DNA from: Sphingomonas sp. C3-2 | GTDB taxonomy: Bacteria; Pseudomonadota; Alphaproteobacteria; Sphingomonadales; Sphingomonadaceae | DNA: 64,000 nt | Reading direction: 5' to 3' | NCBI RefSeq assembly: GCF_033025475.1 | Contig: NZ_CP130322.1 | Coordinates: forward strand, 3,167,001 to 3,231,000 | Shown: in pieces, positions 17,313-18,443 of the stretch | How positions within the stretch are numbered: position 1 is the stretch's first letter | Layout of the letters: each line of letters begins with the position of its first letter | Made by a program: the position numbers and the translations under genes | Notes under the pieces: generated by a model | The model's input: only the letters and a program-made list of their open reading frames with translations | The model's database searches: none | What the model was told of the DNA's origin: nothing

Positions 17313-18443
17313 ATGAGCTCTACCCGTTTTTCCTTCACCATTTCCGCCACCGACGGCAAGGCACGCACCGGCACCATCCAGATGCAGCGCGGTGAGATCC
17401 GCACGCCCGCCTTCATGCCCGTCGGCACCGCCGCCACCGTCAAGGCGATGAAGCCCGCCGATGTGCGCGCCATCGGGGCCGATATCATTCTCGGCAACAC
17501 CTATCACCTGATGCTGCGTCCCGGGGCCGAGCGGATGGAACGGCTGGGGGGATTGCACGGTTTCATGGGCTGGGATCGCCCGATCCTTACCGACAGCGGC
17601 GGTTATCAGGTGATGAGCCTGTCCGATCTCACCAAGATCACCGAGGAAGGCGTCGCCTTCAAAAGCCATCTCGATGGCTCGCGCCACATGTTGTCGCCCG
17701 AACGCTCGATGGAAATCCAGCGTCTGCTGGGTTCGGATATCGTCATGGCATTCGACGAATGCACCAAGAACGGCGCCACGCATGACGAAGCCGCCAAGTC
17801 GATGGAACGATCGATGCGCTGGGCGCAGCGTTCGCGCGACGGTTTCGACAGCGGCGTCGACCATGCTTCGCGCGCGGCGCTGTTCGGTATCCAGCAAGGC
17901 TCGCTCGACGAAGGCCTGCGCAAGATTTCGGCTGACAAGCTCATCGATATCGGGTTCGACGGTTATGCCGTGGGCGGCCTTGCCGTGGGCGAGGGGCAGG
18001 AAGCGATGTTCAGCGTGCTCGATTTCGCGCCCGGCCAGCTTCCGGCGGACAAGCCCCGCTACCTGATGGGCGTGGGCAAGCCCGACGACATCGTCGGCGC
18101 GGTCGAACGCGGGATCGACATGTTCGATTGCGTGCTGCCCACGCGCAGCGGGCGCACGGGGCAAGCCTTCACCTGGGATGGCCCGATCAACATCCGCAAT
18201 GCGAAACATGCCGAGGATCTGCGCCCCATCGATCCGGAATCGCCGATCGCCAACTGGTCGCGCGCCTATCTGCACCATCTTGTCCGGTCGGGCGAAATCC
18301 TCGGTGCCATGCTGATGACCGAGCATAACCTCTGGTTCTATCAGCGCCTGATGCAGGAATTGCGTGCCGCGATCGCCGAGGGCCGGCTCAAGGCCTTTGC
18401 GGATTCGTTCCGCGCGCGATATTCCGCACGGCAGCAGGATTGA
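17313..18443 (+). CDS. tgt: tRNA-guanine transglycosylase lacking the zinc-site cysteines
   Basis: The 376-residue bacterial-type Tgt exchanges G34 in GUN anticodons for preQ1. The general acid D94 is in LTDSGGYQV and the nucleophile D272 is in [11 protein letters not shown], so catalysis looks intact. Bacterial Tgt normally holds a structural zinc through a CxCxxC motif plus a histidine just before and after SRAYLHHL. Here the segment from D307 reads [17 protein letters not shown]: all three cysteines are absent and three residues are missing. The histidine H338 (TEHN) remains. The start at 17313 matches the family N-terminus. Confidence 0.92.

Follow-up and report, generated by a model that had tools for sequence, protein, structure and literature searches.

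A tRNA-guanine transglycosylase of Sphingomonas sp. C3-2 without the cysteines of its zinc site, and the distribution of such losses in Alphaproteobacteria

The zinc-binding site is thought to hold together the tRNA-guanine transglycosylases (Tgt), the enzymes that first alter the tRNA on the way to queuosine. Zinc-binding residues of Tgt are called highly conserved, and the zinc domain a hallmark of the enzyme, in passages of PMC4425180 and PMC6165067, and a passage of PMC9508795 lists Tgt as requiring zinc for activity. No paper on a natural loss of this site was found in open-access PubMed Central when titles and the beginnings of abstracts were searched; curators of protein annotation databases may already know of such losses.

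A functional precedent comes from S. meliloti. According to passages of PMC3568095, tgt, queC and queF mutants of strain 1021 share a common phenotype, and added preQ1 rescues the queC and queF mutants but not the tgt or queA mutants. These genetics, which in the passages concerned consist of phenotypes and include no tRNA analysis, place tgt downstream of preQ1 in the queuosine pathway (PMC3568095). The same source places tgt on the main chromosome of strain 1021; in a 3.7 Mb S. meliloti record (CP090106.1) tgt lies on what is labelled plasmid pSymB, perhaps a mislabelled chromosome. In strain Ak57, Tgt reads DEQSSCPATRDYSRAY and SWNNL, and two cysteines and the histidine are lost. A Tgt that lacks most of the zinc ligands thus appears to function in the queuosine pathway, provided that strain 1021 shares the Ak57 residues and that Ak57 has no further tgt. 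The Tgts of S. meliloti and other Hyphomicrobiales resemble the protein described here in the loss of zinc cysteines, and in S. meliloti genetics of another strain (1021) point to a queuosine-pathway enzyme. They differ in that the loss occurred by substitution with the loop length kept; in S. meliloti, moreover, the middle cysteine is retained and the histidine is replaced by asparagine.

Zinc proteins such as ribosomal proteins L31 and L36 have zinc-free (C-minus) paralogues in which structural zinc ligands are likewise replaced and function is kept. The Tgt described here shares the replaced ligands but is the sole copy. QTRT2, the non-catalytic subunit of eukaryotic TGT, has the Tgt fold as well; as described in part of PMC6165067, it keeps zinc and has its catalytic residues exchanged, the opposite of the present case.

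The tgt gene and its zinc site

The window, a stretch of 64,000 nucleotides from the Sphingomonas sp. C3-2 genome, contains tgt as a frame without internal stop codons (Table 1). In profile searches the product scored 485.2 bits against TIGR00430, above the curated equivalog cut-off of 306.75, and 499.1 bits against PF01702. It shares 77% identity with the Tgt of Zymomonas mobilis (1pud). As a search of the 3.53 Mb genome gave no other Tgt match, a second, zinc-type Tgt elsewhere in this genome was rejected. A strand check also turned up an open minus-strand frame, which is of little interest.

Table 1. Features of the tgt region (positions in the window)
Feature	Position	Strand	Basis
queA, next enzyme of the queuosine pathway	14536..15576	+	NF001140, 453 bits (cut-off 324); TIGR00113, 360.2 bits (cut-off 267.45)
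EF-hand gene between queA and tgt	15573-16094		
MarR-type regulator gene, 3' end 11 bases upstream of tgt	16840..17301	+	PF12802, 44.6 bits
tgt, tRNA guanosine(34) transglycosylase, 376 aa	17313..18443	+	TIGR00430, PF01702, identity with Zymomonas Tgt 1pud; single copy
Codon D94, equivalent of general acid/base D102 (Z. mobilis Tgt)	17592..17594	+	phmmer alignment, residue scoring
Codon D272, equivalent of nucleophile D280 (Z. mobilis Tgt)	18126..18128	+	phmmer alignment, residue scoring
Codons 307-315 (DPESPIANW), loop in place of the CxCxxC zinc knuckle, three residues shorter	18231..18257	+	phmmer against Z. mobilis Tgt; MAFFT alignment of 263 Tgts
Codon H338, corresponding to the fourth zinc ligand (Z. 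mobilis H349), kept	18324..18326	+	phmmer alignment, residue scoring
Codon W341, three residues past former ligand H338, candidate compensating residue	18333..18335	+	W counts in the 118-row set

An earlier sequence-only reading had claimed that three zinc cysteines and three residues are lost from this protein, and the phmmer alignment of residues 4-374 with Z. mobilis Tgt bears this out. The zinc-site segment of the latter, DSECHCAVCQKWSRAY, has a counterpart that lacks all three cysteines and is three residues shorter, with residues 307-315 (DPESPIANW) standing opposite DSECHCAVCQKW. Likewise, the three residues described as intact, H338, D94 and D272, face H349, D102 and D280. Of the ligands that define a zinc-type Tgt, the histidine is therefore present and none of the three cysteines is. 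No shifted alignment can supply them because the whole protein has just two cysteines, C150 and C273, neither of which is close to the zinc site in sequence. An assembly error is ruled out as well, since the same motif occurs in all five genomes examined from the genus and in 20 distinct Tgt sequences. Based on the alignment, we file the protein as a zinc-site-less variant of Tgt and not as a zinc-type Tgt.

The AlphaFold2 model of the protein (mean pLDDT 93.2; 97 for residues 301-310 and 98 for residues 311-320) has the bacterial Tgt fold: it matches 1pud with a Z score of 58.8 and an rmsd of 1.0 over 369 residues, and Foldseek agrees. The protein differs from the Z. mobilis enzyme in its missing CxCxxC knuckle; catalytic and dimer hot-spot residues are the same. 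A helical turn formed by residues 311-315 in a control model of a zinc-type Tgt (L017) is absent from the model of this protein; the control was modelled without metal at equal confidence, so that model confidence says nothing on zinc-free stability. Apart from its zinc site, the protein is an ordinary Tgt in everything tested.

Distribution and origin of the deletion

Tgt sequences from 269 loci (263 distinct) were aligned with MAFFT and scored at the four ligand positions. The sample of the own family, Sphingomonadaceae, comprised 99 genomes, 96 of them with a Tgt match and 94 scored in the alignment. Among these, the deletion form was seen in 13 and all three cysteines in 80, and G048 carries three substitutions; the remaining two family Tgts (G011 and G066), read separately, have the cysteines. 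The deletion form occurs in 12 of the 92 family genera with a Tgt match, and it accounts for 20 of the 263 distinct sequences. The Tgt search gave no match in three of the 99 family genomes and in eight of 114 genomes of the class.

In other alphaproteobacterial families, represented by one genome each, at least one zinc cysteine is missing in 19 of 84 and at least two in 17; of the 106 class genomes with a match, the 20 whose hits are most distant are not in the sample, nor are the second Tgt copies of G417 and G422. Further, 20 of 80 named relatives lack at least two zinc cysteines, a fraction that is no census given that the 80 are the sequences matching this protein best. They include Rhizobium, Mesorhizobium, Hoeflea, Aquamicrobium, Methylocapsa and Phenylobacterium as well as two Erythrobacter and three Pelagibacteraceae. 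The losses elsewhere have other forms, mostly substitutions without this deletion. By these alignment counts zinc-site loss is recurrent and common in Alphaproteobacteria, and that of the present protein is one of several. The idea that this branch is something special, as the sequence-only reading had it, does not hold in view of the 19 of 84 families, and uniqueness to the branch was rejected by that count together with the alignment of 263 Tgts. If about one fifth of the sampled families lack the site (19 of 84 by at least one cysteine, 17 by at least two), zinc would be a replaceable brace and not a requirement. As a side observation, the two alphaproteobacterial genomes G417 and G422 have two Tgt-like matches each, the second of G422 being only 35% identical to this protein.

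The position equivalent to H349 is histidine in all 204 Tgts with three cysteines and has lost it in 15 of the 59 with missing cysteines, so that variation of the histidine is restricted to Tgts short of cysteines, in counts that are inflated by kinship among the sequences. All these losses fall among the 39 Tgts that lack cysteines without having the deletion (N in 11, I in two, V in two). Judged from these residues, the zinc site is really dismantled in Tgts with missing cysteines. On a FastTree tree seven changes are needed for histidine loss and 21 for cysteine loss, or 12 if the deletion rows are omitted; an independent-pairs test of the two losses gave a median p of 1, with too few informative pairs and hence low power.

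In the deletion form the knuckle is replaced by a loop of the pattern SPx[AG]xW, in which S-P and W are fixed in all 20 sequences. The position of W341 is tryptophan in 20/20 deletion forms versus 16/95 zinc-type Tgts of the same 118-row set. In an independent-pairs test of deletion against W341, which has low power, on average three of four pairs pointed the same way and none the opposite way (median p 0.25). W341 may fill space vacated at the zinc site, for which the pair test is only suggestive.

Trees, all of them quick ones, were used to follow the deletion form. In a 118-row Tgt tree with the motif columns removed it needs nine changes, and grouping it in one clade is rejected (p-AU 0.005); in a second Tgt tree it needs ten. 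The rpoB tree covers 54 of 56 genomes, G037 (no rpoB match) and G014 (partial) being left out; L014 is absent from this tree and from the 56-row tests, in which the substituted G048 counts as not deleted. Here the deletion form needs ten changes, at least five of which are forced by starred branches, it falls into ten separate deletion-only clades, and one deletion clade is rejected with p 1.6e-42. A single clade of the deletion form is accordingly rejected by topology tests both on rpoB and on the body of Tgt. In a good part of the genomes with rpoB loci among L270-L299, the longest open frame over the locus is apparently antisense, reaching up to 1829 aa; such frames are a trap for automatic gene calling.

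The same test was applied by region. The N-terminal 306 columns reject grouping in one clade (p 6e-5); the C-terminal 60 columns do not (p 0.64), and for these the tree constrained to one clade is slightly better. Among windows of 60 kept columns, with approximate boundaries, columns 121-180 (p 1.4e-5) and 181-240 (p 6e-4) reject one clade, which columns 1-60 (p 0.21), 61-120 (p 0.17) and 241-300 (p 0.22) do not. When W341 is left out of the C-terminus, the tree constrained to one clade falls 5.5 log units short of the unconstrained tree (p 0.41). In amino acids, the C-termini of deletion forms are closer to each other than their N-termini predict. At fourfold-degenerate sites the comparison with deletion-zinc pairs shows, in three of four distance bins, no greater closeness of the deletion forms in the C-terminus than in the N-terminus; a recent transfer of the C-terminus was discarded, as these sites give no clear sign of it.

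The regional tests suggest that the C-terminal segment of the deletion form is compatible with one origin and was scattered by recombination. Most simply, a 3' tgt segment of one origin would have been exchanged between lineages of the family by homologous recombination; we are less sure of this step, and equally less sure in taking the mosaic pattern for an old exchange of 3' segments, the main rival being parallel evolution combined with shared constraint. A further-reaching reading, to which we give somewhat less than even odds, is that Tgt can do without structural zinc, that Alphaproteobacteria have repeatedly given it up, and that the family's zinc-free C-terminal cassette (short loop plus W341) arose once and was swapped between lineages by recombination inside tgt. 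If true, natural segment exchange would alter an enzyme's need for a metal.

A genuine possibility, albeit on the improbable side, is that nearly the same deletion arose independently about ten times in the family, so that the distribution would not reflect the spread of one segment. In its favour, the rpoB tree has ten deletion-only clades, the Tgt trees need nine and ten changes, the C-terminus has no clear common synonymous signal, and zinc-site loss recurs elsewhere. However, those other losses take other forms, mostly without this deletion, an identical SPx[AG]xW together with W341 in 20/20 would be an unlikely repeat, and the C-terminal columns that do not reject one clade do reject two random groups of 19.

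The enzyme without its zinc knuckle

The equivalents of D102, Y106, D156, Q203, G230, L231, A232, V233, G261 and D280 (Z. mobilis numbering) are identical in all 20 deletion forms, so that the catalytic aspartates D102/D280 and the base-pocket residues expected of a TIGR00430 Tgt are in place. The position of C158, in the base pocket, corresponds to codon 150 (17760-17762) and is cysteine here; it is C in nine and L in 11 of the deletion forms. This variation possibly affects base choice. Titles of PDB entries among the structure matches include Y106F/C158V/V233G Tgt mutants with queuine. An aromatic hot spot of the Tgt dimer is described in part of PMC5395182; its residues W326, Y330 and H333 (Z. 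mobilis numbering) are kept in 20/20 deletion forms and F92 in 19/20, and in this protein they are F84, W315, Y319 and H322. Finally, dN is well below dS in eight pairs of deletion forms, and likewise in three zinc-type pairs.

Queuosine pathway genes were searched in 20 genomes (19 with the deletion form and G048 with the substituted one), a set that holds no zinc-type genomes for comparison. QueC, QueF and QueA are each present in 20/20. QueG was found in 16, and QueH, an unrelated stand-in for QueG, in exactly the other four (G070, G058, G086 and G048) and in none of the 16. By these matches the two enzymes replace one another neatly at the final step of queuosine synthesis inside a single family. 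The own genome has QueC, QueF, QueA and QueG. It also holds a second QueC-like gene (G000:C1:765445-766014; 222-aa frame) that scores 88.6 bits, below the cut-off; no second QueC match in the other 19 genomes scores above 26.2 bits.

We conclude that the tgt product is very probably an active, zinc-free Tgt in which the metal knuckle has become a shorter, packed loop. The part of the sequence-only reading that proposed a zinc-free enzyme still in use is supported by sequence, conservation, predicted model, low dN/dS and the kept pathway genes. In the proposed mechanism the C-terminal knuckle, normally pinned by zinc, would be shortened, with the loss of its helical turn in the model, and would instead be kept in place through packing of the proline, of W315 and probably of W341. 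The enzyme would then still form a homodimer and still exchange G34 for preQ1 in tRNAs with GUN anticodons. Zinc-free Tgts of this kind would be ready-made natural variants with which to probe the role of the metal in folding, dimerisation and tRNA binding. They would also matter for how queuosine relates to metal homeostasis and for inhibitors directed against the Tgt dimer interface.

Among the alternatives, it is improbable that the enzyme still binds a metal via H338 and other side chains, be they acidic residues or residues of the dimer mate. H338 is kept in 20/20 deletion forms, against losses in 15/39 of the remaining Tgts that lack cysteines; this could hint at a remaining role of the histidine, metal binding included. 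Yet the asparagine adjoining H338 does not vary among 68 aligned Tgts, and the helix may thus be constrained for reasons other than metal. In addition, the loop SPx[AG]xW has no conserved metal ligand but serine in the 20 sequences, and the two cysteines left in the protein are not near the site in sequence. Even less credible is a decaying or inactive enzyme in a remnant pathway: Chong et al. are said to have found in 1995 that zinc-ligand mutants of E. coli Tgt are impaired, but dN/dS is low here, all tested catalytic residues are kept, tgt is the sole copy and the pathway enzymes searched for are present in 20/20 genomes. Equally hard to credit is the other suggestion of the sequence-only reading, a changed substrate (queuine, some different base, or targets other than tRNA) or a novel partner protein: leucine at the C158 position in 11/20 deletion forms would fit it, but this protein has C150, leucine also occurs in 21/204 zinc-type Tgts, the tested active-site residues are otherwise those of Zymomonas in 20/20 (V233 equivalent included), the dimer hot spot is kept, and the retention of queF and queA fits preQ1 as substrate.

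Turning from these alternatives to the gene neighbourhood of the putatively zinc-free enzyme, queA is indeed upstream of tgt in the window, as had been claimed, but not directly: an EF-hand gene, a GNAT gene on the opposite strand and the MarR-type gene lie in the interval. The last of these is a possible operon partner of tgt. A 395 kb plasmid of Sphingomonas parapaucimobilis (NZ_CP155752.1) has tgt and an EF-hand gene listed under the same match.
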